From Crambe crambe (taxonomy: Eukaryota > Porifera > Demospongiae > Poecilosclerida > Crambeidae): a stretch of 64,000 nt of DNA. The first letter of the stretch is position 1. Each line of letters starts with the position of its first letter. Under the pieces are notes generated by a model. The model worked only from the letters and a program-made list of their open reading frames with translations, was not told the DNA's origin and made no database searches. Positions 1-56,755 of this stretch are shown here, one piece after another. The position numbers and the translations under genes are program-made. Location of the stretch: the NCBI GenBank assembly GCA_963924555.1, contig OZ004597.1, positions 5,963,904-6,027,903 on the forward strand. Direction: 5' to 3'.

Positions 1-52
1 TGGATAGCTCTCAGAGTAACCAACATTTTGGTACTAAAATTAACACCCAGAG
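1..52 (+). repeat. Left terminal inverted repeat
   Basis: It pairs with 4751-4802 at 48 of 52 positions. It starts on the window's first base and may extend further left. Confidence 0.88.
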
Positions 53-216
53 CTAAAAAGTGAATGAGTTATGTGCGATATTATTAATGTTATGTTTGCA
101 AGCAGCTGATGCAAGCAGCTGATGCCTTGTGTGCATGTTTTTGCAAGCAGCTGATACCTTGTGTGCATGTTTTTGCATGCATGAGGCATTTAGTCAGTAG
201 AGTTGAAAAGTTACAG

Positions 217-273
217 GTAAGTTTATCATTCAGTTTTCCAGCTCACCCTACAATTCTAGATTCTTATTTTCAG
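217..273 (+). other. Putative 57-bp intron in the transposon 5' leader
   Basis: The donor CAG|GTAAGT at 217 and the acceptor TTTTCAG ending at 273 sit just before the ATG at 276. A pyrimidine-rich stretch precedes the acceptor. Removing it leaves a short untranslated leader. Confidence 0.5.
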
Positions 274-275
274 CA

Positions 276-3200
276 ATGGAGGCACAACCTGCAAAGTGTG
301 CTATATGCAAGGCTTCTATAGGTACAGGAGTCCCATCTTCTACTCTAACAGCAAAAGGGAGTTCAACTATCAACCGCGCCAGTGATGTAAGGAAAGACAG
401 TATTCATACTATGCCTGGGGAAGTAGTGCATCAGGAGTGTCGCCGCATATACTGTCATCCTTTTCAAATAGCGAAAGACACCAACCAAGAAGAGTTAATG
501 CCAAGTACAAGCAAAGGTAGACCTGTGCTTCGGTCATCTGAGGAGGATTTTTCTTTCAAGACTGATTGCTTCTTCTGTGGAAGACCAGCTAAGTTGGGGA
601 GAAAACGAAAGCATGATGTTCTTCAAGTGAAAACCATTGGAATAAAGGAGACTGTTCTGAAGATATGCCAAGAGCGAGCTGATAGTTGGTCTGACACTGT
701 GAAGGCACGCATTCTACATGTGCATGACCTGCATGCTGCTGATGCAGTCTACCATCAGACTTGCAGTGTCAATTTTCGCACAAAGAAGCAGATGCCAATG
801 TCTCAGTTCATTGCAGAAGATTCCAAGAGGCCAAAGCTTGGACGTCCTCAGAATGACACAAGGGCAGAAGCATTTTTGGAGGTTGCAAGATACCTTGAAG
901 ATAATGACGATGAGCAAATTACAATCAATGATCTCATTGACCTTATGAACCAAAAACTAGCAGACACTACTTACGAAGCTTATACTTATCCCCACATGAA
1001 GACAAAGCTTCAAGAACACTTTGGTGAGAGACTAATTCAGACGGAGATCAATGGCAAACCGAATGTTGTCACTTTCAGAACAACAGCAAGAGTGGTGCTC
1101 CAGGACTACTACAGTAAGCAGCAACAGAAACAAAACACTGCTGAGGAGAAAATAAAACTTGTACAGGCAGCTGCAAAGCTAATTAAGGAAGACATCAAAG
1201 CCATTGAAACAGCCCATGAAGTTTACCCCCACTGCAATGACCTGACATCACAAGAGGCTAGCATAGAGTATTTACCAAATACTCTGAGGGTACTGCTGGA
1301 AGAACTATTTGCTGGGAAAAAAGCTGGAGTGAAAATGGCTTCAATTGGGCAAGCAATGATGCAAGCAACTCGACCCCGGGTCCTGCTAGCACCACTGCAG
1401 TTTGGGTTGGGCGTGCAGTTGTATCACCACTTCTCCTCACGATTCCTCATTGACTCCCTTCATCATCATGGGTTTTGTTGCTCCTACCAAGAAGTGCAGC
1501 GGTTTGAGCACAATGCTGCTCAGTCACATGGAACTGGCATTCCCAACCTGTCAACAGAATTCGTCCAGTATGGAGCTGACAACGTTGACCACAACATCCG
1601 CACATTGGATGGCCATGGCACCTTCCATGGTATGGGTATGATTGTTGCTGTTACTCCTGAAACCAGTTCAGGGCAGTCAATCCCCAGAGCAAAGGTAACC
1701 TCTCTTGATGTTGCTGCTGTTGGAAGGGTGCAGATACATTTCCACAAGGAAGAGAGTCATGGAATGTCTGCTGTGACATACCAAAAGCTTTTAGATTTAA
1801 AGGCTCAGAACTGCTATGAAAATCTTGATGTTCTGTGGAAAACATCGATCATTTTCGGATCCCCCAGACCAGCGTGGTCAGGGATGATGCAGTTTGTACA
1901 CCAGGGTGACCACCCAGGTAAGGCATCTGTCATGTTCTTGCCTATAATTGACATGAATCCCAGTGACAGCACATGCATTTACTCTACACTCATGTTCATC
2001 AGTGAGCATGCACAAAGACATGGTGTTACCCCAATTCTAACATTTGATCAGCCACTGTGGTGGAAAGCTCTCATGATTATTGAATCTGAGCCTGAGGAGA
2101 GTGATCTCAGAGAGATCGTATTGCGTCTTGGTGGTTTCCATACTGAGATGAGCTTTCTTGGATCCATTGGGCACCTGATGGATTCATCTGGGCTGCAAGA
2201 AATGCTCGAGTCTATCTATGCACCCAATGCAGTTATTCACATGTTGAGTGGCAAGGCTATTGCACGAGCTGTGCGTGGACACTTCATTGTTGATGCAGCC
2301 CTCAATGCTCTGATGCTGCATAGTGGGTTCAATGCTCCTTTGCCATGCCAACCTATGTCATACAGCAGTGATAATGAAGCAGATGTAGAAGCACCCACCA
2401 AGAACCAAGATGTGGACGAAGCCCTCACCCTCTATGAGAAACTCATGGCTAAAGAGATAAGTGCAGAAGAAGTGTGCTCATCCAATGTCCTGGAAAGAAT
2501 CAAGGACAGTCTCAAGAATCACTCTGAGTCTGTAAAAAAGTCCTCCAGAACTTCAGCACTTTGGGTTCAGTACATGCACATGATCGACATCTTGCGCAAA
2601 TTCATCAGAGCAGAGCGTACTGGAAATTGGGAGCTGCATCTGCAGGCTATCCAAGACATGCTTCCCTACATGGCAGCTTCAGGCCACAACTCATACACCA
2701 AGTCTGCCATGCTCTATTTGCAGCAGATGTCGAACCTCAAGACTCAACATCCTGATGTCCAGCGACATTTCAATAAGGGATTACATGTGATCCGAAGAAG
2801 CAATCGCCCATGGGGAGGTCTTTCATCTGATCTTATTATTGAGCAGGTTCTCATGAGAAGCTTGAAGACCAGTGGAGGGCTCACACGAGGGCGTGGAATG
2901 ACGGAACATCAACGACTATTGTGGCTGTTGTCAAGACCTGCCTGTGCAGAAGTTAATCAGGCAATGCAGGAGCTCACTGGGGTTAACTACAACACTGGGG
3001 AGCAGAATAAGGATATGACAGCAGCAAGACAAGCACGTGACTGGAAAGACACACTGACTGTACTCCAATATCTGCAGGAGCGAAACCCATTCAGCTCGGA
3101 CCCAAGTTTGCAAAGTATTGCCACTGGAGTGCATGCTCACCCCACTGTTAATGTTGATAAGGCAGTGGCAATTGGGGACATGATATTAACATCAATGAAT

Positions 3201-4706
3201 GGGATCACACCTGCCGAGTACACATTTCAGAAGAAAAACCAAGCAGTTACTCTAGGCTTGAAGTCATCTTCAGTCAAGATTGATGGAGATAGAATTCAGA
3301 TTGACCCACTGCTCCTCTTTCAGAGGCTCACCACTGTCATGCAGTCATCGGATGATCTGGAGTCAGCCTTCAAATATGAATTGTGCAGCTATCCATCTGC
3401 TCTCTATGATTCCTCTCTTTTGCTCCGTGAAGCCGACAAGCCAGCACTTGCTGATGCCATTTGGAAGACTTGTGAATGTGAGGCCCCAGCAGATATCTCA
3501 GAAGATGGAATTCAGTATGTCCTGGATGGTGGAGCACTTCTACAACGCATTCCATGGTCCCGTGGTTCTACATATGGAGACATCTGCCACCAGTACACAG
3601 AATATGTAGCAAGAAAGTACAAGAATGCCATAGTTGTGTTTGATGGCTATGAGAGTATGAACACAAAAGATATGACACATCAGAGGCGGTCAAAAGGAAA
3701 GGGAGGTGCAACTGTGACAGTTGCTTCTAACATGACCACCACAATGAAGAAGGACCAGTTTTTGGCCAACCGAAAGAATAAGCAGCAATTTATTTTCATG
3801 CTAAGTAGAGAGCTGGAGAAGAACAACTGCAAGACTTACCATGCATCAGGAGATGCTGATCTTCTGATTGTCCAGAAGGCTGTTCAATCTGCTACCACCA
3901 GTAACACTGTCCTAGTTGGTGACGACACTGACCTCATTGTTCTGCTCTGCTATCACACAAAGCTCGAGTCCCATGACCTCTTCTTTCGTCCTGAGCCTAA
4001 GAAGAACACAAAGAAGCTTCGCATCTGGAATATCAAGGCCACAAAAGAAAAGCTTGGTCAAGACATCTGCAGCAACATCCTCTTCATACATGCATTTCTT
4101 GGGTGCGACACAACATCACGCCTGTATGGGATTGGAAAGGGAACGTCCCTTAGCAAGTTCAAAGCAAGCAGTATGTTCCGTGAGCAAGCAAAAGTGTTCA
4201 ATTCTGATTCAGCCTCCACACATGATGTGGTAGATGCAGGAGAGAAAGCACTACTACTAATCTACAATGGAAAGTTAACTGACACATTGGATTCCCTCCG
4301 ACATAAACGATTCTGTGAAAAGGTGGCTTCAAAAACATCTCATGTAAAACCACAGTCCTTGCCACCAACTTCGGCAGCAGCAAAGTACCACAGCCTTCGT
4401 GTGTACCTTCAAGTTCAAGAATGGAAAGGATCTGCTGATGGACTTCATCCAACAGACTGGGGATGGCAGGAGTGTGAAGAGGGGTTTGTGCCACTTCAAA
4501 CATCTCTACCTCCTGCTCCTGAACATCTGCTGCGGGTAATCAGATGCAACTGCCAGACTGACTGCAGTACTCTGAGATGCTCATGCAAGAAGCACAATAT
4601 TGAATGCAGTCCTGCTTGTGGCAACTGCAAGGGAACTGGTTGCACAAACATATCTCGTGATAATGATACAGATGTAGAAACATTTGATAGTCAAATAAAC
4701 TATTGA
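276..4706 (+). CDS. Transposon protein: zinc-binding N-terminus, PIN/FEN-like motifs, CXC C-terminus
   Basis: Uninterrupted ORF of 1476 residues filling the element. The N-terminus has two Cys/His clusters: C8, C11, H52, C55, C60, and a second from about residue 98 (CFFCG) to 160 (YHQTC). Near the C-terminus are spaced acidic motifs: VVFDGY (D1123), GDADLLIV (about 1192), GDDTDLIVLL (about 1215) and FLGCDTTSRLYGIGK (D1278). Their order and the final GxD...GIGK resemble the metal-binding and helix-hairpin segments of PIN/FEN1-type nucleases; this is inference from motif layout. Residues about 1424-1456 form a Cys-rich block (CNC...CSCKK...C..C..C) like the tesmin/TSO1 CXC DNA-binding domain. 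A short intron (GT at 217, AG at 273) may precede the ATG, so an untranslated exon is likely; upstream ATGs do not splice into frame. No DDE-type transposase was recognised. It is probably the element's mobility protein. Confidence 0.8.
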   Translation: MEAQPAKCAICKASIGTGVPSSTLTAKGSSTINRASDVRKDSIHTMPGEVVHQECRRIYCHPFQIAKDTNQEELMPSTSKGRPVLRSSEEDFSFKTDCFFCGRPAKLGRKRKHDVLQVKTIGIKETVLKICQERADSWSDTVKARILHVHDLHAADAVYHQTCSVNFRTKKQMPMSQFIAEDSKRPKLGRPQNDTRAEAFLEVARYLEDNDDEQITINDLIDLMNQKLADTTYEAYTYPHMKTKLQEHFGERLIQTEINGKPNVVTFRTTARVVLQDYYSKQQQKQNTAEEKIKLVQAAAKLIKEDIKAIETAHEVYPHCNDLTSQEASIEYLPNTLRVLLEELFAGKKAGVKMASIGQAMMQATRPRVLLAPLQFGLGVQLYHHFSSRFLIDSLHHHGFCCSYQEVQRFEHNAAQSHGTGIPNLSTEFVQYGADNVDHNIRTLDGHGTFHGMGMIVAVTPETSSGQSIPRAKVTSLDVAAVGRVQIHFHKEESHGMSAVTYQKLLDLKAQNCYENLDVLWKTSIIFGSPRPAWSGMMQFVHQGDHPGKASVMFLPIIDMNPSDSTCIYSTLMFISEHAQRHGVTPILTFDQPLWWKALMIIESEPEESDLREIVLRLGGFHTEMSFLGSIGHLMDSSGLQEMLESIYAPNAVIHMLSGKAIARAVRGHFIVDAALNALMLHSGFNAPLPCQPMSYSSDNEADVEAPTKNQDVDEALTLYEKLMAKEISAEEVCSSNVLERIKDSLKNHSESVKKSSRTSALWVQYMHMIDILRKFIRAERTGNWELHLQAIQDMLPYMAASGHNSYTKSAMLYLQQMSNLKTQHPDVQRHFNKGLHVIRRSNRPWGGLSSDLIIEQVLMRSLKTSGGLTRGRGMTEHQRLLWLLSRPACAEVNQAMQELTGVNYNTGEQNKDMTAARQARDWKDTLTVLQYLQERNPFSSDPSLQSIATGVHAHPTVNVDKAVAIGDMILTSMNGITPAEYTFQKKNQAVTLGLKSSSVKIDGDRIQIDPLLLFQRLTTVMQSSDDLESAFKYELCSYPSALYDSSLLLREADKPALADAIWKTCECEAPADISEDGIQYVLDGGALLQRIPWSRGSTYGDICHQYTEYVARKYKNAIVVFDGYESMNTKDMTHQRRSKGKGGATVTVASNMTTTMKKDQFLANRKNKQQFIFMLSRELEKNNCKTYHASGDADLLIVQKAVQSATTSNTVLVGDDTDLIVLLCYHTKLESHDLFFRPEPKKNTKKLRIWNIKATKEKLGQDICSNILFIHAFLGCDTTSRLYGIGKGTSLSKFKASSMFREQAKVFNSDSASTHDVVDAGEKALLLIYNGKLTDTLDSLRHKRFCEKVASKTSHVKPQSLPPTSAAAKYHSLRVYLQVQEWKGSADGLHPTDWGWQECEEGFVPLQTSLPPAPEHLLRVIRCNCQTDCSTLRCSCKKHNIECSPACGNCKGTGCTNISRDNDTDVETFDSQINY

Positions 4707-4750
4707 ATTCGTATCGCAGATTATTTGATCATAACTCATTAATATTTTGT

Positions 4751-4802
4751 CTCTGGGTGTTAATTTTAGTATCAAAATGTTGGTCACTATAAGAGCTATC
4801 CA
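4751..4802 (-). repeat. Right terminal inverted repeat
   Basis: It is the inverted partner of 1-52. The flank immediately to the right is ATGGTATATTAA. Confidence 0.88.
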
Positions 4803-5218
4803 ATGGTATATTAATTTTTGATGTAAGTAGTACCCAAGCTGAGATATGACAAGAAATACCATAAAAACCATAAACCGTTTAGTAGCAAAAAGTGGTTTTA
4901 CATTTGAGTGATTTTCACAATGTTCCCCCAGGAAGATTCCTTAAGATTTTTTTGCTGCCATAGAGGACATAATGAAGAAACAAAATCAGTTGAGTTTGCT
5001 TTTGTTGCAATTTGTTTAAGGTTGACTCATCATAATGACTGTACTATATGCCTCAATTCACTGTGTGCAGGTAGCGATAATTGTGTGATTGTGACTGCTG
5101 GTATCCTTCTCTCAGTTATAGGACTGCTATAAATCTGGAAATTAAGGCCCTCAAATTTTTGCACAACTTGCATTTTAACCATTTCTACTCTCCATCAGTG
5201 ACAGACTGTTGCTCAGGA
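4803..5218. other. Intergenic, nothing recognised
   Basis: AT-rich spacer between two inverted-repeat elements. Only short ORFs are present and no convincing coding or RNA feature was seen. Confidence 0.5.
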
Positions 5219-6308
5219 CGTACACAGGATTGGAAACAGGGCATGCGCGCGTAGAATTTATAGACCATCCGTGTAGGTACCTGGCGAACAGAGAAATCTT
5301 ACACAAAATAGGAAAGAGGGTGAAAGGCAAGGTATTTAGCGCAGCAATAATTATGATTATAAGTGAAAAGGCTCAATGACCTATAGCTGTAGTAGTTTAT
5401 CATGTCAGTTTAGTCTATTTACTGTTGCTATGGAAGAAAAACGTGGAAACAGGTGACTGAAAAGTTTTGTGGCACTCCTACTACTAAAATAGAAGTCTAG
5501 CTGCCTTACTTTTGGTATAAAATGAAAGATACTAGTTGACCATATGTACTAAAGTAGTTTTAATTTTGTGCAGGGCTGGAGATGGCATGCCATTTGCCAT
5601 TGATGGTTTAAGAAGCCATTTCACTATGTTGTTGTTCTTATATGAGGAGATGAGATACCTCCTTGTATCAGGGGCAGGAAAGGATACACTGGGGCAGCTT
5701 TATTCTTCATCTTGATCCCTCAAAACAAGTATATCACAACAAATCTCTCGATGAATTGGATGTTCAGCAGTGCACTATCAGTACTTGTTATTATCATTTT
5801 TTTATTATAACATGAAAGGAAATATGTGTAAAGTGACAGTATTAGTTGCTACATTATAGTATCCTTCTTTACTATAGCTTTTCTTGACAGCCAGCCATGG
5901 GTAATCTGAAGAAACAGTAACATCGACATGATTTTTTTACAGGCACCTTTAAAAAGTACATATGTACATATGAATGATCACTACCTAACAGATTAGTGGG
6001 AAAAAAGAGACTATACTTTTAATATCCAAGCTCCAGAGGTCCACAAAGTCGAACTACCGTTGTTACTCGCAATTATACCCTCTAACACTTGAGAAACCAG
6101 CCTTTTTAAGAACTATGCTTGTTTAGCACTATACTAGCCCACTCTTTGCATTCTTTAAACTTACCAATTGGCTATAGTTTAGCAGAAATTTGGCACACTA
6201 CTTCTCCTCCCCTGTTTGTTTGGGGCAATTTAGCACGAACAGCTGCCTACACGGATTGTCAGTATTGTCGTTATGGGCGCACGTGACCTGTTTCCAATCC
6301 TGTGTACG
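5219..6308. mobile_element. Non-autonomous element bounded by imperfect inverted repeats
   Basis: The left arm (5219-5285) begins CGTACACAGGATTGGAAACA. The right arm (about 6242-6308) is its inverted partner, ending in the complement of the same 20 bases. Inner parts of the arms match imperfectly but include TCCGTGTAGG on both sides. About 1.09 kb in total with no coding sequence. A related fragment, TTTCCTATCCTGTGTATGTAGTC, occurs near 9210. No clear target duplication was found. Confidence 0.65.
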
Positions 6309-9559: not shown

Positions 9560-11359
9560 TCAGGTGTAACATAAAAATGATTTATAACAAGTGATAAGTC
9601 AGGTTCTGATGATGACAGAGCAGAGAGGATCCTGTCCACATTCATGAGGGAGGAGTGAGTTGTGATATAGTGTTCAAAGTACGAATTGCCCTCCAAATCT
9701 GACACATCACATCGAGGGCAAGGGCTGGAACCATATGAGGGCCTGGTCAGCTCCCTATACAGGTTCTGTAAGCAGTGGTGCCGGCTGTGCCTCTATCCAG
9801 GGCTGCGTCCCAGAGTTTTATCCAGCTAGACTCCTTAGCAACCGCAGCTGCTATTCTGGTACTCATGTGCTCTTGACAGGATGATAGTAGCAGTTCCATG
9901 TCTCTATTAGTCACTTCACTCTTCAGCTCAGCTGTAGAACACATCATCCCTAGGGTCTTCTTCACCAAACCATCCAAACCCAGACGAGATTCAAGGAACT
10001 GGGACCCCTCTACGATCTGAAGTGGAACTTCACTGGGTGTGTCTCCCATGAGATGAGTGAGAAATAGATGACCGAGGGACTCTTCATTTGTGGATGCACG
10101 TTGGATGAAGAGGAGTTTCTGCTATAGTATGCGTGCTGTCATTGAGGGCCACTCCAGAGCGAGTCTAGTAGCCCTGCCAGAGTGATGTCGGGGCAGTTTC
10201 AAGATTCGACGGCCGATCTCAGCTTGGAAAGATTCAAGCTTATCCAATAGAGATTCAGTCAAGTACCAGTTTTCACTCCCAAATAGCAGGACTGGGACGA
10301 CACAAGTTTCGAAGATGGCTCTACCAGAGAGAGGATTTAGCTTTCCCTGGAAACCACCCATTGCTCCAAATGCAAAGAAGCTACTCCTTGCCCGTCCAAT
10401 TGCAGTGTCGATTGACTTGTTTGCTGACAGGTCCCAGGACCACCAATATCCTAGGCACTTGGCAGAGGCAACTGGAGGGAGGGCCTGTTCCTTGATTGTG
10501 CAAATTGGCTCAGCAGGAGCTGTCTGGGATGAGACAATCACTACTTCACATTTAGATGCATTCAGGGATAGAGCATTTGTGGCTATAAACTCCTCTACTC
10601 TTCCAATTTGGGAGTCTAGGGTGTCCCTGCTAGTACATAGTGTCCTAATATCATCTGCATGAGCAAAGCCCCCTGCATATAACCCAGCCACACATGGACC
10701 CAGCTGGTTCTTCTCTAGATGTTGTAGGAGGAGGTCCAGTATGAGCAGGAACAGGGTGGGGGAGAGGACCGAGCCCTGAAGGAGGCCATGCTCCATGGTG
10801 TGAGGTTCAGAGGTCTTCCCATTGAGTAGGACACAACTCTTTGGGGCCGTGTACCAGGATCTCAGCAATCTCCATGTCTTCCCCATGATACCACACTCAT
10901 ATGCGTGTTTCAGCAAAACAGGGTATTGCACTGAGTCGTAAGCCTTTTGCAGATCGAAGAAACACAGATATGCGGTGTCTCCTTCCCGTGCAAACTTGGA
11001 TACAGCTTCAAAGGTGGAGAAGGTGGCATCTACACATGAGTTGTTCTTCACGAATCCCGTTTGGTTCCTATGGGGAATTCCTCGTTCAGTAAGGATGGGC
11101 TGGAGTCTGAGTAGCACTAGCCGCCCATGGTTTTTGCAAGAACAGAGGTGAGTGTTATCCCGCGATAACTGTTAGTGTTTAAGGGGTCCTTACCATGGCC
11201 CTTGTAGACTGGGATTAGCATGCCCTGCTTAAATGTAGCTGGGACTACTTCTGACTCAATCACAGCGTTGCAGACTTGTTGGATCCAAAGCAGTAATGAT
11301 TGACCCCCAAAACGAAGGTGTTCTGGTTGTAAGTGGTCGAGTCCTTCAGACTTACCCAA
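9560..11359 (-). pseudogene. 5'-truncated non-LTR retrotransposon with reverse transcriptase
   Basis: Read on the minus strand from 11359, the first segment contains KSEGLDHLQPEHL and NSYRGITL, typical of the fingers of LINE reverse transcriptases. A frameshift near 11117 leads into a 331-codon frame with FFDLQKAYDSV, GLLQGSVLSP and AHADDI, which holds the catalytic aspartate pair with His replacing the usual Tyr. Further frame shifts near 10122 and 9747 separate a C-terminal part that ends in a CxxC...HxxxxH zinc-finger-like motif (CPRCD...FEHYITTH). No endonuclease domain remains upstream. At least three frame breaks mean the copy is dead. Clade is not assigned. It lies about 130 bp past the UBXN11 stop, on the opposite strand. 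Confidence 0.88.
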
Positions 11360-15710: not shown

Positions 15711-17363
15711 ATGGATTGTAGATTGCTTTTCATGTTGCTACTTTTTCCTTGTAGTGAGGCCTCAGGAGATATCCGATATCGGGAAGAATCAGAGGTTAAA
15801 GAGATGACCTGTCCCACATGGTACCACACTAACTCTGCTGGTCGGTGTGAATGTGGTGCACGCTTGAGAGATAAAGTGATATGTAAGCCAAATAAGAAAG
15901 TTGATACTATTGCCTGGCTGTGTATGAGTTACGATAATAAAAGTAAAGTCACAGTTGCAGGAAAATGCATATACAGTCCTTTAGGCAGCTTCAATAACGA
16001 TTATTTTATCAAGCAGCCCACTGCTGTGACAGAGTTGGATAATTTCACTTGTGGCTGGTTGAATCGAACTGGCCTTTTGTGCAGTCACTGCAGGAATCAG
16101 TCACATGGAGTTGCTGTGCTATCCTACAGGTATGAGTGTGTGGAATGTCTGGGGAGTATCTATGGATGGCTGCTCTATTTCACCCTCGTACTTGTTCCAG
16201 TCACATTATTCTTCCTTGTCATTATAGTCTGCAACATTCGTGCAACAGCAGCCCACATGAATGCATTCATATGCACTGTACAGATCATATTCTACACTAT
16301 CAACACTCAAATAGGTGGAGTTCATACGAGCTTTGATAAATTTGCTGTGACCATATTGGGTATTTGGAGTTTGGATTTTTTTCAGTATACTTTCCCTCCA
16401 TTCTGCATTGATAAAAACTACTCGACTTTGAGAGTATTATCATTTGGCTACATCAATGCCTTCTATCCACTAGCTCTCCTGATAATCACGTACATTTCCA
16501 TTGAGTTACATAACAAAAACTACCGACTGTTCAGAACAATTTGGCTACCTTTTGGATTATGTCTGTCTTCTATTCAGAAGCATTTGTCTGTGAAACTTCA
16601 CATTAATGCGAGGTTGAATGTTTTAAATGCATTTGCTACTTTCATCATCTTAGCCTATTGCAAGATATTGTACACTAATTTTTCCCTTCTTAGTTTTACA
16701 CAGCTCTTCAAAAATAATGGATCTCCATTTCCACCAAATAAAACACGATATACTCTCTACAATGCTTCAGTGCCATACCTCGGAGAAGAGCACAAACCTT
16801 ACTTCATCCTGGCCATTACTGTGCTCCTGGTCTTCAACATCTTTCCAATGCTTCTTCTACTTTTGTACCCCACAAAACCCTTTCAAACGTTACTTAACTG
16901 CTTCCCCCAAATGCGTTGGGATTACCTTCACATATTCATGGATTGCTTTCAAGGGTGTTATAAAAATGGAACTAACAACACTCTGGACTATCGCTACTTC
17001 GCTGGACTTTACCTCCTCATTCGATTCATAAACCACATCGGTATGATTGGGCCTGGGTCGTACAACATCATGATTCAGAATATTCTTCACCTGACTGTCT
17101 CAATTCTGTTTGGAGTTTTGCGACCATACAGAAATGATTTCTATAACAGATTAGACTGTACATTCTTTGGATTGCTAACATTTGGCAGTGTATGGATGCT
17201 CTGCAACAAATATATTGTCCGTCTACGAAACTATTCAGTCATATTATTATACATCTTGGGAATGATTACAGTGCTGCCCTACACACTGTTGATACTACTA
17301 CAGAACTTGATATCAATAGTGTGTCCACAGAATCTCATAATTAAACTCAAAAAAATTCTTTAA
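15711..17363 (+). CDS. Orphan multi-pass membrane protein, array copy 1
   Basis: Intronless 550-residue ORF. Residues 1-17 form a signal peptide (MDCRLLFMLLLFPCSEAS). A Cys-rich ectodomain follows to about residue 150 with several N-glycosylation sites and the motifs CGWLNRTGLLCSHC and YECVECLG. About nine hydrophobic segments follow from GWLLYFTLVLVPVTLFFLV (about 152) to the C-terminus, which ends in a short basic tail (KLKKIL). The family resembles expanded orphan membrane proteins of sponges and cnidarians, from memory; ligand and function are unknown. It differs from copy 2 at a few residues and in one clustered block (INHIGMIGPGSYN here, INHINTIYNHPSYT there). Confidence 0.85.
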   Translation: MDCRLLFMLLLFPCSEASGDIRYREESEVKEMTCPTWYHTNSAGRCECGARLRDKVICKPNKKVDTIAWLCMSYDNKSKVTVAGKCIYSPLGSFNNDYFIKQPTAVTELDNFTCGWLNRTGLLCSHCRNQSHGVAVLSYRYECVECLGSIYGWLLYFTLVLVPVTLFFLVIIVCNIRATAAHMNAFICTVQIIFYTINTQIGGVHTSFDKFAVTILGIWSLDFFQYTFPPFCIDKNYSTLRVLSFGYINAFYPLALLIITYISIELHNKNYRLFRTIWLPFGLCLSSIQKHLSVKLHINARLNVLNAFATFIILAYCKILYTNFSLLSFTQLFKNNGSPFPPNKTRYTLYNASVPYLGEEHKPYFILAITVLLVFNIFPMLLLLLYPTKPFQTLLNCFPQMRWDYLHIFMDCFQGCYKNGTNNTLDYRYFAGLYLLIRFINHIGMIGPGSYNIMIQNILHLTVSILFGVLRPYRNDFYNRLDCTFFGLLTFGSVWMLCNKYIVRLRNYSVILLYILGMITVLPYTLLILLQNLISIVCPQNLIIKLKKIL

Positions 17364-19065: not shown

Positions 19066-20721
19066 ATGGATTGTAGATTGCTTTTCATGTTGCTACTTTT
19101 TCCTTGTAGTGAGGCCTCAGGAGATATCCGATATCGGGAAGAATCAGAGGTTAAAGAGATGACCTGTCCCACATGGTACCACACTAACTCTGCTGGTCGG
19201 TGTGAATGTGGTGCACGCTTGAGAGATAAAGTGATATGTAAGCCAAATAAGAAAGTTGCTACTATTGCCTGGCTGTGTATGAGTTACGATAATAAAAGTA
19301 AAGTCACAGTTGCAGGAAAATGCATATACAGTCCTTTAGGCAGCTTCAATAACGATTATTTTATCGAGCAGCCCACCGCTGTGACAGAGTTGGATAATTT
19401 CACTTGTGGCTGGTTGAATCGAACTGGCCTTTTGTGCAGTCACTGCAGGAATCAGTCACATGGAGTTGCTGTGCAATCCTACAGGTATGAGTGTGTGGAA
19501 TGTCTGGGGAGTATCTATGGATGGCTGCTCTATTTCACCCTCGTACTTGTTCCAGTCACATTATTCTTCCTTGTCATTATAGTCTGCAACATTCGTGCAA
19601 CAGCAGCCCACATGAATGCATTCATATGCATTGTACAGATCATATTCTACACTATCAACACTCAAATAGGTGGAGTTCATACGAGCTTTGATAAATTTGC
19701 TGTGACCATATTGGGTATTTGGAGTTTGGATTTTTTTCAGTATACTTTCCCTCCATTCTGCATTGATAAAAACTACTCGACTTTGAGAGTATTATCATTT
19801 GGCTACATCAATGCCTTCTATCCACTAGCTCTCCTGATAATCACGTACATTTCCATTGAGTTACATAACAAAAACTACCGACTGTTCAGAACAATTTGGC
19901 TACCTTTTGGATTATGTCTGTCTTCTATTCAGAAGCATTTGTCTGTGAAACTTCACATTAATGCGAGGTTGAATGTTTTAAATGCATTTGCTACTTTCAT
20001 CATCTTAGCCTATTGCAAGATATTGTACACTAATTTTTCCCTTCTTAGTTTTACACAGCTCTTCAAGAATAATGGATCTCCATTTCCACCAAATAAAACA
20101 CGATATACTCTCTACAATGCTTCAGTGCCATACCTCGGAGAAGAGCACAAACCTTACTTCATCCTGGCCATTACTGTGCTCCTGGTCTTCAACATCTTTC
20201 CAATGCTTCTTCTACTTTTGTACCCCACAAAACCCTTTCAAAAGTTACTTAACTGCTTCCCCCAAATGCGTTGGGATTACCTTCACATATTCATGGATTG
20301 CTTTCAAGGGTGTTACAAAAATGGAACTAATAACACTCTGGACTATCGCTACTTCGCTGGACTTTACCTCCTCTTTCGATTCATAAACCACATCAATACG
20401 ATCTACAATCATCCCTCGTACACCATCATGATTCAGAATATTCTTCACCTGACTGTCTCGATTCTGTTTGGAGTTTTGCGACCATACAGAAATGATTTCT
20501 ATAACAGATTAGACTGTACATTCTTTGGATTGCTAACATTTGGCAGTGTATGGATGCTCTGCAACAAATATATTGTCCGTCTACGAAACTATTCAGTCAT
20601 ATTATTATACATCTTGGGAATGATTACAGTGCTGCCCTACACACTGTTGATACTACTACAGAACTTGATATCAATAGTGTGTCCACAGAATCTCATAATT
20701 AAACTCAAAAAAATTCTTTAA
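19066..20721 (+). CDS. Orphan multi-pass membrane protein, array copy 2
   Basis: Intronless 551-residue ORF nearly identical to the copy at 15711, with the same signal peptide, Cys-rich ectodomain and about nine membrane segments. Differences include D/A near residue 66 (KKVATIAW), K/E near 102 (YFIEQP), and the block INHINTIYNHPSYT. All Cys of the ectodomain are kept and the frame is fully open, so it is probably functional. The start context GTTGCAAGCATGG matches copy 1. Confidence 0.85.
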   Translation: MDCRLLFMLLLFPCSEASGDIRYREESEVKEMTCPTWYHTNSAGRCECGARLRDKVICKPNKKVATIAWLCMSYDNKSKVTVAGKCIYSPLGSFNNDYFIEQPTAVTELDNFTCGWLNRTGLLCSHCRNQSHGVAVQSYRYECVECLGSIYGWLLYFTLVLVPVTLFFLVIIVCNIRATAAHMNAFICIVQIIFYTINTQIGGVHTSFDKFAVTILGIWSLDFFQYTFPPFCIDKNYSTLRVLSFGYINAFYPLALLIITYISIELHNKNYRLFRTIWLPFGLCLSSIQKHLSVKLHINARLNVLNAFATFIILAYCKILYTNFSLLSFTQLFKNNGSPFPPNKTRYTLYNASVPYLGEEHKPYFILAITVLLVFNIFPMLLLLLYPTKPFQKLLNCFPQMRWDYLHIFMDCFQGCYKNGTNNTLDYRYFAGLYLLFRFINHINTIYNHPSYTIMIQNILHLTVSILFGVLRPYRNDFYNRLDCTFFGLLTFGSVWMLCNKYIVRLRNYSVILLYILGMITVLPYTLLILLQNLISIVCPQNLIIKLKKIL

Positions 20722-22493: not shown

Positions 22494-24085
22494 ATGGATT
22501 GTAGATTGCTTTTCATGTTGCTACTTTTTCCTTGTAGTGAGGCCTCAGGAGATATCCGATATCGGGAAGAATCAGAGGTTAAAGAGATGACCTGTCCCAC
22601 ATGGTACCACACTAACTCTGCTGGTCGGTGTGAATGTGGTGCACGCTTGAGAGATAAAGTGATATGTAAGCCAAATAAGAAAGTTGCTACTATTGCCTGG
22701 CTGTGTATGAGTTACGATAATAAAAGTAAAGTCACAGTTGCAGGAAAATGCATATACAGTCCTTTAGGCAGCTTCAATAACGATTATTTTATCGAGCAGC
22801 CCACCGCTGTGACAGAGTTGGATAATTTCACTTGTGGCTGATTGAATCGAACTGGCCTTTTGTGCAGTCACTGCAGGAACCAGTCACATGGAGTTGCTGT
22901 GCTATCCTACAGGTATGAGTGTGTGGAATGTCTGGGGAGTATCTATGGATGGCTGCTCTATTTCACCCTCGTACTTGTTCCAGTCACATTATTCTTCCTT
23001 GTCATTATAGTCTGCAACATTCGTGCAACAGCAGCCCACATGAATGCATTCATATGCATTGTACAGATCATATTCTACACTATCAACACTCAAATAGGTG
23101 GAGTTCATACGAGCTTTGATAAATTAGCTGTGACCTTATTGGGTATTTGGAGTTGAGAGTATTATCATTTGGCTACATCAATGCCTTCTATCCACTAGCT
23201 CTCCTGATAATCACGTACATTTCCATTGAGTTACATAACAAAAACTACCGACTGTTCAGAACAATTTGGCTACCTTTTGGATTATGTCTGTCTTCTATTC
23301 AGAAGCATTTGTCTGTGAAACTTCACATTAATGCGAGGTTGAATGTTTTAAATGCATTTGCTACTTTCATCATCTTAGCCTATTGCAAGATATTGTACAC
23401 TAATTTTTCCCTTCTTAGTTTTACACAGCTCTTCAAGAATAATGGATCTCCATTTCCACCAAATAAAACACGATATACTCTCTACAATGCTTCAGTGCCA
23501 TACCTCGGAGAAGAGCATAAACCTTACTTCATCCTGGCCATTACTGTGCTCCTGGTCTTCAACATCTTTCCAATGCTTCTTCTACTTTTGTACCCCAAAA
23601 AACCCTTTCAAAAGTTACTTAACTGCTTCCCCCAAATGCGTTGGGATTACCTTCACATATTCATGGATTGCTTTCAAGGGTGTTACAAAAATGGAACTAA
23701 TAACACTCTGGACTATCGCTACTTCGCTGGACTTTACCTCCTCTTTCGATTCATAAACCACATCAGTACGATCTACAATCATCCCTCGTACACCATCATG
23801 ATTCAGAGTATTCTTTTCCTAACTGTCTCAATTCTGTTTGGAGTTTTGCGACCATACAGAAATGATTTCTATAACAGATTAGATTGTACATTCTTTGGAT
23901 TGCTAACATTGGGCAGTGCGTGCATACTATGCAATGAACACATCGTCCAATTACAAAAATTTTCGGTCTCAGTACGCATAGTGGGAATGATTGCAGTGTC
24001 CTACACACTGTTGATATTGCTACAGGACTTGATATCAGTAGTGTGTCCACAGAGTCTCATAGTTAAACTCAAAATTTTTCTTTAG
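22494..24085 (+). pseudogene. Broken array copy 3 of the multi-pass membrane protein
   Basis: Same start and ectodomain as copies 1 and 2, but TGG becomes TGA at 22839-22841 within the CGW motif, and a 58-bp deletion near 23152 removes part of a membrane segment (copy 2 residues DFFQYTFPPFCIDKN) and shifts the frame. Downstream the frame stays open to 24085. The last 70 codons or so (from about 23880) are diverged from copies 1 and 2 (for example LGSACILCNEHIVQL), so the 3' end has a different history. No intron would cleanly remove either lesion. Confidence 0.85.
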
Positions 24086-34800: not shown

Positions 34801-37800
34801 CCTTCAGTCACTGCCGCATGAAATATGTGTCATCATTGTATGTAAGTGTCATACTACACAGTGGGATAATTTCGGTGGGGATGTAATTTTAGTAATCAGT
34901 CTATCTATCGTTCTATTGAGCCACCGTTTAGCCACATGTAGAGTTGTTCTTTTCATTCGTACATCATTCAGCGTGAACTATGGTGCTTTATCCAGTAGGC
35001 TGGTAACTTACCTAGCCACTTTCTTCTCAGATTCTGTCAATTAAAAAGTCGTCACGATCGCGAAGAAGGCTATACCTGAAGAAATGAAGGGAAAAAATAG
35101 GCAAGTATGCAAGCCAAGTGAAAATGGAGATTCAGCAGCTGTGAAGTCCATAGATATTGTTGCGCATGCACTAAAATAGTCGTACTGTACGACTACCGTA
35201 ATTCTTCATCTGTTTTTATCTCCGAAAAAAACCCACTGTATGGTATGTGATGTACAGCGTGTATCATGTGATGTACGGTGTGTGTCATGTGATGTACGGT
35301 GTGTGTCATGTGATGTATGGTGTGTATCATGTGATGTACGGTGTGTGTCATGTGATGTATGGTGTGTATCATGTGATGTACGGTGTGTGTCATGTGATGT
35401 ATGTGTTATGTTTGTAGATTTCAGGAGTTGGATTTAAGTGCTCAGTGCCTGCTTAACAATGAATCCAGCCGTGAGGACATGTGGGTGGAATGTGTAGAAC
35501 GAAGTCTAAGACATGTTGGCTCTTACACCAAGGTCAGCCATTAGCTAGTACCATGGGCTCCTACACCAAGGTCAACCATAGCACTTAACCTTAGCCAGTC
35601 ACCAAGGTCAGCCATAGCACTTGAACCTTAGCTAGTGCTGTTGGCTACTTCACCAAGGTCAGCCATTACACTGAACCATATGTATGTATGTTGTAGCTGT
35701 GTTGTGTTCGTCTGGTTGGCATAATGCTTCTGGTCTACATCAAAGATTCACTATGTCCCTTTGTCAGTGACATTGAGACTGACGTGGTCGCCACTGGAAT
35801 GCATGGATATATGGTAGGTGTCCTGAGTGGGAAGGACCTAGTGGGTGTGGCCTATTACCAAGCACTTTTCTTGCAGGGGAACAAAGGCGGTGTGGGAGTG
35901 CACTTTAATCTCTACCACTCGTCACTGTGTTTCGTGAACTCTCACCTTTCAGCTCACATGGAGGAGGTGGAGAAGAGAAATGGAGAATACTTCAACATCA
36001 TAAACAAGATGATTTTCAGCACATCTGATTTTCCTTACGACATAGTTCACCATGAGTACGTTACCATGACTTCATAGTTCACCATGAGTACGTTACCATG
36101 ACTTCATCTAGCTGTGTTACACTGATAATTACTCCACACCACACCCATTAAACGAGTCCTAAACACAGCAAGTTTAGTAGATTGAAGTCCATGCATCCAT
36201 CAGTGCATATTCATGTGCAGTCAGTTGCTGCAACTCTGCACATCAAGTCAAACCATCCAGTCAAGCTACTTAAACTCAAAGTCTTTAAGGAATGATTATA
36301 TAGCAGTTGCATTACAGCTGAGTCTAATGAATTACCATGTCTTCATTGCAGCATGATCTTTTGGATTGGGGATCTGAACTATCGGATCAACACTAATGCA
36401 GAGATGACTTATGAGCAAGTGAAGGCCAATGCCGATGCATACCAGTTCCCTATCCTGTTCAAATATGACCAACTGCTGCTTGAGATGGAGAGTCACAACG
36501 TGTTCACTAGTTTCACAGAAGGAATAATCGACTTCAAACCCACCTACAAATATGACCCCAACACTGACAACTGGGACTCCAGGTATGTGTGTGTGTGTGC
36601 ATCCTGCTGTCATGTGATCTGCATGCAGCACTGACCTATCCATGCATCCCATGCTTTGGTATTGATGGGTACACACACCCATACCTCCTAATCATGGTAC
36701 ATACACCCATATCTCCTAATCATGGTACACACACCCATACCTCCTAATCATGGTACACACACCCATACCTCCTAATCATGGTACACACACCCATACCTCC
36801 TAATCATGGTACACACACCCATACCTCCTAATCATGGTACACACACCCATACCTGGTACACATACCCATACCTCCAAATTGGTATGGGTGTGTGTACAAG
36901 TAAAGTGATGTCCCACCCTATTATTATTAGGGTAGATGAGAAGTGTGCAATAGTGGTCTCCCTATGAATGGGAGTACAGCCAGTGTAGGGTTATGGGAAG
37001 TGTACAGTAATGGCCTCCCATGCTTGGCCCTGCAATCAATCATGACGATAATATCATGGTCCTTCACTTCACTGCCATGCATGGTCCTGTGGTGTAACAG
37101 TTAGCACCCGAGACTTTGAATCTCAAGATCCAAGTTCAAATCTCGGCAGGACCTTTTTTATACTTTCCTTTTTTCTTCAAATCTACTGCAATGTTTCTTT
37201 GTCTCAGCACCTGCCCATACCCATATCATGTCAGAATGAGTTATTAGTGTAGCAGGACATAGAGATACATAACAGGACACAGAGATATCGTGTAACAGGA
37301 CACAGAGATACATGAATATATAGTGTAACAGGACACAGAGATACATGAATGACTACAACATAACCAAACAGGTTTCCTGTACTTGCTGATCTTTAACCAA
37401 CAAGTAAGCTTGAGAGAACAGATTACAGGGAGAATCAGTTATCAGGTAGTGCAAAGCCATTAGCAACTAAACTGGCATTGTCTGGCATGACAGCCTGTCT
37501 TCAAAGAAAGGCAAGTGATTAATCTGAGGTCTGTGATAGCTTCTTCAGTCAAGTGGAGGCCGACCACATCACCTATCATAAACATACCACGTTTAGTGAT
37601 CATTGATGAAGTCATACTGAGACAGGAAGAGTATCTAGTGATGTACATGCGTAGCTTCTCCCTTGTATTGATTACACTCTGTCATCTCTTCTCTTTTCAG
37701 TGAGAAGCATCGTGCCCCTGCTTGGTGTGACCGCATTCTCTATCGTGGGAAGGGGATTGAGCAATGTTCCTACACCAGTCACCCGGCACTCAACATCAGT

Positions 37801-54481: not shown

Positions 54482-56755
54482 TTAAAGAATTGGAAGAATA
54501 GGAGGAACAAAGACACATATGATGAAAATAGTGATCATTAAATTCAGAGTGACTGAGAGTACTATAAACTCATCAGTTGGATCAAATGACACAGCAAAGA
54601 GAAGAAAGTACAGGGAAAAGCCAAGGACACACAAAATGGTCATCAAATACACTAGGACACGCAGTATGTTGGTTGTGAATGAGTTATTGGAAATTTTTCG
54701 TGTAAGAATAGCAAAAATAGTGACACAACTGAGAATGGCTGCTTTATATGCCATAACAAGGCTTATCCACACCTTGTAGTTAGCAGATGTGCATACAATC
54801 TTCACACGCAACGTATTATTCAACAAACTTTTATCAGGGTTCTCTTCCATAATGCTGTCAAATCTAGAATCTTTCAGTGATGTCCAAGTAACTCCAAAAA
54901 CCACATCAACGACTACCAATGAGATTACTCCAGCAATAAGTAGAGGGTCTGAAATGAAGGGTCCGGGGCTGTTGTAATGTTCAAAGATGCGGTAAATTCT
55001 CCATGTTCGCAGAGCTACAGGAGCAAAGGAAAGGGTAAAACCAAGTGGTAGGAACCAGGCCCATAACATCTGGCAAAAAATGTGCCTTATTTTCACATCA
55101 AGAGCTGCTGCAGAGTTCAAAGTCCAGATGAACGTCCCAGCTGCCAAGATATATATACCCATGTAAGAGATGTGGAGTAGTCTAGGGCTGGAGGCTTTCA
55201 CTGATGGCTTTTTGGCATGTATGAGAGTGAACGTGTGAAGAAGTACTACAATTAGGAACTGGATGATCACAGTAATGGTAAGGAATATACCTCCAATATG
55301 GTTTTCTCTAACAATGACATTCGGAAATGAGTCTGGGATGAGCTCTACAGAGTTGTATTGGATAAGATCAATGCCAATGGTAGCCACTAATGTTATATTG
55401 CCTTTGCTGACTTGAAAGAGGTTTGCCTTTCTCTTGGAGAATCCTGTCTCTCTTTCAAAGCTGATCTCACCTGACATTCCTTGAAATTTTGTTTCATAGA
55501 ACTGATTGACGATCATTTTAGTTTGTGACAAGTTCCCATAGCTGCCACTATTTATCCTGAAACCTTCTGTTTTTGTCAGGTTGTCCAACACTAGCGCCCA
55601 TGCCCACACAGCATCGTAGAGATAAGTACCCCAATTAGTCACAGTGGAATTCCGTTCTAAAGTATTGGACATCTGGTTGTAATTCTCCACATAAGCCTCA
55701 TAGCGACGAAGATAGTCTTGGTAAGTGATGTTTGACTCAAGTAACACACCATCAGATGGTTCCAGGCTGTAGGTGGAAAGCACTGTCATTTCTAATGCTT
55801 TAGCCATGTCTTCCCTTGTGCACATCTTCTTATCATAGAAGAAATCTACTGGCTGTAGAAGTTCATTCGGATGGTGGTCCATAAATACCCACTGGTATGT
55901 GTCATATGTCAGATTCATATGATTGGAGCTGGAGAGACATATGATTTGCTGTGACAATTCCAAAGAACACATGACAAATACAATTCGTGACAGGGTTTGT
56001 CGAATGGCCTCTAAAGGAATGTAACTTGGAGATGCAGGAAACAAAATAAAGTTCGCTGTGATATTTCTATCTTTAGTTGATTTTAGCAACAACCTTAATG
56101 TGTTCTGATAAGCCAAACGAGAGTCATCATAGAGTATGGACACATTTTCCCATTTGGACTCATTTAGCAGAAAGATGAATCCTTCCACGAAACTTTCTGT
56201 AGAACCCAATGTTCCTAAGAGATACTGGTACTTTGAACGACTCGCCAGGGTGGGACTGGAAGAACCATGGAGCATAACAATACTCAGTTCTGACCTATTT
56301 AATAATGGAGCAAGTCCTATGGTTGAAAAAGAGCAACCTGGACCAATGGTCCCCATTATTTTTTCTCTATTGGGTGCAAATGCTTCTTCAATAAAACTGC
56401 CAATAGTCCTTGCCACTCGATGACAGCCACCTTTTGCATGAATCAGCTCCAACGTGTAGTTCTCCAGCAGCGATGTATTCTCGTTAATCTGGTCCTTGGC
56501 AAGGTCCAAAACAGGCTGCAGATTATCTCCTTCAGCCCACAGTGGATTCAGGAATGGATCCGGATCATAGTAAGGTAAAAGAGTCAGCAAATAGACTACT
56601 TCTTTCTTGTTAGTATCATTCTTATTGCAGCAAGCTGTCCTACAGGAGACGAGGACTAGAGAAACTAATAGAACAACAGGTTGCATCTCACGAACAAGAT
56701 CAAGTCTGCTACATAGCTCGTTAATGCTGCAGCGCAGTGCTAGTGGAATCCGCAA
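54482..56755 (-). CDS. GABA-B-like metabotropic receptor, intronless
   Basis: Single-exon 757-codon ORF. The signal peptide fits best from M24 (MQPVVLLVSLVLVSCRTACC), so translation may start at 56686. Residues about 50-480 form a periplasmic-binding-like (Venus flytrap) ectodomain: LAKDQINENTSLLENYTLEL, GPGCSFSTIGLAPLL, YDAVWAWALVLDNL. Seven membrane segments follow from about 490, with the loop IHAKKPSVKASSPRLLHISY; KASSPRL is the GABA-B hallmark. The cysteine-rich domain of mGlu receptors is absent, as in GABA-B. The chain ends at FVPPILPIL right after the seventh membrane segment, with no cytoplasmic tail or coiled coil. Sponges have many such receptors; the ligand here is unknown. Either the tail is really missing or a spliced 3' exon exists. 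Confidence 0.9.
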   Translation of the reverse strand: MRIPLALRCSINELCSRLDLVREMQPVVLLVSLVLVSCRTACCNKNDTNKKEVVYLLTLLPYYDPDPFLNPLWAEGDNLQPVLDLAKDQINENTSLLENYTLELIHAKGGCHRVARTIGSFIEEAFAPNREKIMGTIGPGCSFSTIGLAPLLNRSELSIVMLHGSSSPTLASRSKYQYLLGTLGSTESFVEGFIFLLNESKWENVSILYDDSRLAYQNTLRLLLKSTKDRNITANFILFPASPSYIPLEAIRQTLSRIVFVMCSLELSQQIICLSSSNHMNLTYDTYQWVFMDHHPNELLQPVDFFYDKKMCTREDMAKALEMTVLSTYSLEPSDGVLLESNITYQDYLRRYEAYVENYNQMSNTLERNSTVTNWGTYLYDAVWAWALVLDNLTKTEGFRINSGSYGNLSQTKMIVNQFYETKFQGMSGEISFERETGFSKRKANLFQVSKGNITLVATIGIDLIQYNSVELIPDSFPNVIVRENHIGGIFLTITVIIQFLIVVLLHTFTLIHAKKPSVKASSPRLLHISYMGIYILAAGTFIWTLNSAAALDVKIRHIFCQMLWAWFLPLGFTLSFAPVALRTWRIYRIFEHYNSPGPFISDPLLIAGVISLVVVDVVFGVTWTSLKDSRFDSIMEENPDKSLLNNTLRVKIVCTSANYKVWISLVMAYKAAILSCVTIFAILTRKISNNSFTTNILRVLVYLMTILCVLGFSLYFLLFAVSFDPTDEFIVLSVTLNLMITIFIICVFVPPILPIL

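Follow-up and report, generated by a model that had tools for sequence, protein, structure and literature searches.

The beginning of this DNA raises the question of what moves a long element whose single protein resembles a nuclease. The window, i.e., the whole stretch of 64,000 nucleotides that was analyzed (G000:C20:5963904-6027903 of a 143-Mb, 119-contig genome), opens with one very long open reading frame (ORF) between inverted repeats. In the original prediction, it was considered a transposon with terminal inverted repeats (TIRs), whose protein combines a PIN/FEN-type nuclease with a CXC domain and contains no recognizable DDE/RNase H transposase elsewhere. Whether the element is truly mobile, which parts of the protein could drive it, and to which group it belongs are considered here.

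The element is a TIR DNA transposon of the real cut-and-paste kind. Its inverted ends, previously described as 52 bp long, are present, and inside the window they form arms of 73 nt (1-73 and 4730-4802) with 88% complementarity. The BLAST E value of 9e-20 indicates that these arms are not due to chance. The window edge (position 1) falls within the left inverted repeat, and the true left terminus lies farther out. DNA from the left flank (L009) extends the repeat to an alignment of 300 nt at 93%, and the inverted repeats of the whole element measure approximately 320 bp. The limits first placed at 1 and 4802 therefore had to be moved: the whole element covers G000:C20:5963651-5968949 (5299 bp, window -252 to 5046), and its right terminus is at 5046. 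The aligned ends of related copies give termini of the form 5'-TAGT(C/A)CAG. The subterminal direct repeats are possible protein-binding sites.

Table 1. Positions of the features of the element in the window.
Feature	Position	Strand	Remarks
Transposon, part inside the window	1..5046	+	further 253 bp left of the window
Left terminal inverted repeat, inner part	1..73	+	outer 253 bp outside the window
Subterminal direct repeats	97..173	+	32-nt unit, CAGCTG core, at 97, 110, 142
Probable 5'UTR intron, 57 bp	217..273	+	GTAAGT ... TTTTCAG; inferred from splice signals
Single ORF, 1476 aa, probable transposase-nuclease fusion	276..4706	+	
N-terminal region, paired Cys/His motifs	297..764	+	conserved residues
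Putative DDE/RNase H-type transposase core, residues 345-900	1308..2975	+	inferred from conserved acids
FEN/XPG-like nuclease domain, residues 1080-1300	3513..4175	+	motifs, profile-profile match
C-terminal cysteine cluster (CXC-like), residues 1424-1456	4545..4643	+	
Right terminal inverted repeat	4730..5046	-	terminus 5'-TAGTACAGTCATT from the end inward; 300 nt align with the left arm at 93%
Target site duplication, right copy, 3 bp, TAT	5047..5049	.	left TAT outside the window

The rest of the window has a varied content. To the right of the transposon, there is a smaller element-like structure of about 1.1 kb (5219-6308) with inverted arms at 5219-5250/6277-6308 (91%) and 5263-5283/6240-6260 (86%), which is likely a non-autonomous TIR element. 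A reverse transcriptase fragment (10122-11117, minus strand; RVT_1, E 5e-24) represents retroelement remains. Tandem gene copies for a protein of 550-551 aa are located at 15711-17363, 19066-20721, and 23147-24085; units one and two share 98.5% identity over 1.8 kb, the third copy is partial, and the two copies tested gave no Pfam match at E 0.01. At 37083-37154 (plus strand), ARAGORN finds a tRNA-Gln (TTG), and Rfam also matches a tRNA. A single open frame at 54482-56755 (minus strand) encodes a class C receptor-like protein with ANF_receptor and 7tm_3 domains, presumably GABA-B-like.

The mobility of the element is documented by its relatives. The terminus was sought in 19 places, namely the window copy and loci L010-L027. 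Both termini occur in 10 of them and one in 3 (L012, L021, L027), while the TAGT(C/A)CAG terminus is absent from the remaining 6 (L015-L018, L023, L026). All 10 window-group copies with both termini are flanked by an exact 3-bp direct duplication, against 12 matches of 3 bp among 90 mispaired flanks used as a control. With other boundaries or lengths of at least 3 bp, a match was obtained in at most 1 of the 10 copies. The original prediction of a TIR transposon is supported. Inverted ends of its own are also present in a second lineage (L015, L018, L023), whose protein identity to the window copy is 27-59% depending on the stretch. At the termini of this lineage, which were picked by eye, the 3-bp duplication is found in two of the three copies and not in L018, so that the pooled lineages show it in 12 of 13 two-ended copies. 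The duplicated triplets vary (TAT, TAG, TTA, TTT, TTC, AAA, ATA, CAA).

A whole-genome protein search gave at least 42 matching stretches, with 32 of 308 candidates scored. When the 120-base ends of two other subfamilies were used as queries, 37 and 38 matching stretches were found, and these sets overlap each other. Two copies on C3 have stretches of the window's inverted repeat in common; both have decayed, and the two appear to be near-duplicates. The window copy is the only full-length stop-free match among the 32 of 308 candidates scored, as might be expected of a domesticated host gene flanked by repeats through coincidence. Such a gene is contradicted by the target duplication and the intact ends, whose inverted repeats measure approximately 320 bp, as well as by homologous ends in related copies on several contigs and by the decayed relatives on C3. 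This explanation was rejected as having practically no probability. Half of the 10 two-ended copies (L013, L019, L020, L022, L024) are deletion copies, in which the nuclease and the cysteine cluster are retained and the putative transposase core is lost. They were considered as nuclease-only elements and rejected. Each contains stops or frame breaks, and the break points are common within two groups; the C-terminal-only copies are therefore read as decayed deletion derivatives.

The predicted frame of 1476 codons is uninterrupted, and the probable 5'UTR intron sits immediately upstream of its start codon. Database searches with the protein were largely silent. Pfam returned weak or chance matches only, NCBIfam gave no match, and neither the whole protein nor the core alignment matched in PDB sequence searches. 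No relatives of the protein were confirmed in viral contigs and prokaryotic genome contigs. In the N-terminal region, H52, C55, C98, C101, C131, H160, and C163 are retained without exception in the 6 or 7 loci that align there, and this region is likely zinc-binding. At the other end of the protein, the cysteine cluster behind the proposed CXC domain is present, with six cysteines in residues 1424-1451 retained in every aligned locus (14 to 16 loci each); the Pfam preSET_CXC match to it is weak (E 3.8, under its cut-off).

The four acidic motifs that suggested a nuclease (VVFDGY, GDADLLIV, GDDTDLIVLL, and a fourth) are present as quoted. The acids at 1195, 1217, 1219, and 1278 are retained in 13/14, 14/15, 14/15, and 14/15 aligned loci, respectively, as counted without L016 and L017. 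Residues 1080-1300 are not recognized by Pfam, NCBIfam, or PDB sequence searches. The Pfam XPG and PIN models give no match to the ORF at E up to 10; for XPG_I (PF00867), the ORF does not reach the Pfam cut-off, which is exceeded at three further sites in this genome. In a PDB search with the nuclease alignment, one P450 match appeared by chance (E 0.2). A single-sequence AlphaFold model of the region (mean pLDDT 31.8) carries no weight. For these residues, hhalign was used to compare a five-sequence alignment with a small profile that had been assembled manually from pieces of FEN1, EXO1, and XPG. The pieces were taken from the host because a scan of prokaryotic genome contigs with one host FEN1 exon found no archaeal FEN1.

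In global mode, the comparison reached a score of 31.4, whereas the maximum of 100 column shuffles was 12.6 and a control with the core region gave 3.0. Six motifs are in register and follow the same order, LDGG/IDAS, VFDG, RR, GDAD/EAEA, DDTD/TEDMD, and GCDTTSRLYGIGKG/GCDYCESVKGIGPA. The domain differs from FEN1, EXO1, and XPG in its low identity (18% in the alignment), in being missed by Pfam, and in being part of a transposon protein. The local scores were 32.0 and 33.6 (shuffle maxima 21.4 and 20.2, 100 column shuffles each), and the reversed alignment scored 9.6. The core-region control gave 20.6 and 25.0 in this mode; the second of these values exceeds its shuffle maximum (20.2). The global mode was relied on because this control came near or above the shuffle maxima in local mode. 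Among 11 ORF segments, each no longer than 250 residues, only 1126-1375 (27.1) and 1251-1476 (26.4) scored above 18; segment 1001-1250, which contains part of the nuclease domain, scored 12.7. The hhalign probabilities are modest (39.0%, 36.6%, and 67.5% in global mode). Because of these values and the small profile, the evidence that residues 1080-1300 or so are FEN/XPG-like, as originally suggested, is good but not conclusive.

The statement that the protein carries no DDE/RNase H transposase elsewhere became doubtful. Residues 345-900 are conserved as far as the second lineage and contain invariant acids that fit a D-D-E triad. D435, D438, and D445 are retained in 4/4 aligned loci, D591 in 3/3, and E856 in 7/7. 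The candidate triad would consist of D435 or D438, D591, and E856, the last being a guess from its conservation. Because other acids of the core are also invariant (e.g., D559, D564, E642, E780, D852), we infer this triad rather than read it directly. No Pfam DDE model matches the protein, and a weak match to DUF6589, a Pfam family of unknown function, covers residues 608-819 (E 9e-4, under its cut-off). Judged by its pattern of conserved acids, the region is probably a DDE core with a putative RNase H fold.

The window ORF was also compared with six relatives in terms of substitutions, where stop codons were left out and some codons count twice owing to overlaps between matches. The pS values are 0.74-0.81 in the core and 0.81-0.89 in the nuclease, and pN values are 0.16-0.40 and 0.21-0.46, respectively. 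Synonymous differences are saturated, so dS and the ratio are not computable. Both halves are conserved and appear to be held by selection across subfamilies. With silent sites saturated and both halves maintained, the nuclease is probably needed for transposition. Its conservation alongside the transposase half suggests a part of the mobility machinery, not cargo.

On the basis of published descriptions, the element very probably belongs to the Academ superfamily of cut-and-paste DNA transposons and its nuclease-encoding AcademX lineage. Judging from gene content, the host of the element is a eukaryote, probably an animal. The nuclease of AcademX is of the XPG type. The primary description of the Academ lineages, as cited in PMC10045372, is that of Kojima 2020. 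The available part of PMC10045372, in which the term “XPG” does not occur, divides Academ into two lineages, with duplications of 3 or 4 bp in AcademX and of 9 or 10 bp in AcademH; according to its author, this difference seems related to the encoded nuclease (AcademX) and helicase (AcademH). Curated bivalve Academ elements have a mean length of 5565 bp in the accessible text of PMC10294476, and PMC10799480, as far as its accessible part goes, deals with the helicase lineage in fungi. The window element is a DNA transposon of 5.3 kb, its family shows exact 3-bp duplications in 12/13 two-ended copies, and an encoded nuclease is indicated by the profile-profile match with its shuffle and region controls. 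As nuclease, duplication, and length coincide with these descriptions, the element is assigned to a known group and not to a new kind of mobile element. The likeness to AcademX, from which no difference was shown, is one of published description and not of sequence identity to named elements. A new superfamily outside Academ, with a FEN-like nuclease acquired independently, is unlikely; it would draw on the absence of relatives from the viral and prokaryotic collections searched, an observation of little weight when the transposon is eukaryotic, but all three features agree with Academ/AcademX in the parts of PMC10045372 and PMC10294476 that were available.

If the assignment holds, AcademH belongs to the same superfamily, but the window element shows neither the helicase nor the 9-10 bp duplications described for it. 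No Pfam or NCBIfam helicase model matches the ORF, and the duplications are 3 bp long; AcademH was rejected for this element. Other groups were also rejected. Kolobok elements produce TTAA target duplications, whereas those of the window family are varied 3-bp sequences. EnSpm/CACTA elements end in CACTA/CACTG and not in TAGT(C/A)CAG. KDZ (Kyakuja-Dileera-Zisupton) elements have duplications of about 8 bp, compared with 3 bp here.

The original prediction also allowed for the nuclease as an unusual mobilizing enzyme. A FEN/XPG-like nuclease that moves the element by itself, with residues 345-900 not being a transposase, would be in line with the missing Pfam DDE match. However, TIRs accompanied by short and exact 3-bp duplications usually point to DDE strand transfer, and residues 345-900 are conserved with D-D-E-like invariant acids. 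Moreover, the survey in PMC9587614, in its available part, places Academ among the superfamilies encoding a DDD/E transposase, and mobilization by the nuclease itself is very improbable. In the preferred reading, cleavage at the TAGT termini of the inverted repeats would be the task of the probable DDE core (residues about 345-900). The core would then transfer the 3' ends to target DNA at positions staggered by 3 bp, and this stagger would give rise to the 3-bp duplications. The FEN/XPG-like domain may process the strand left by the DDE chemistry, either by cleaving the 5' strand during excision or by trimming flaps and gaps during insertion. DNA binding may be the role of the two cysteine-rich ends of the protein (N- and C-terminal).

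It can tentatively be proposed that the FEN/XPG-like domain is an obligatory second-strand nuclease, so that DDE chemistry would handle the 3' ends and a flap-type nuclease would free the 5' strands; this is possible, but we would not yet favor it. The full-length copy, with its uninterrupted frame, exact ends, and duplications, together with the set of related copies, would make it possible to test why, in some eukaryotic transposons, the transposase is fused to a flap-type nuclease. If the proposal is true, Academ would be a eukaryotic two-nuclease transposase, fused in one chain and with a FEN fold, and would functionally parallel TnsA/TnsB. In Tn7, TnsB acts together with TnsA, a restriction-type nuclease that is a separate protein. 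The pairing of a DDE transposase with a second nuclease would be common to both systems, a parallel that is functional speculation; they differ in that TnsA is restriction-type and separate, whereas the window element has a FEN-like nuclease in the same chain.
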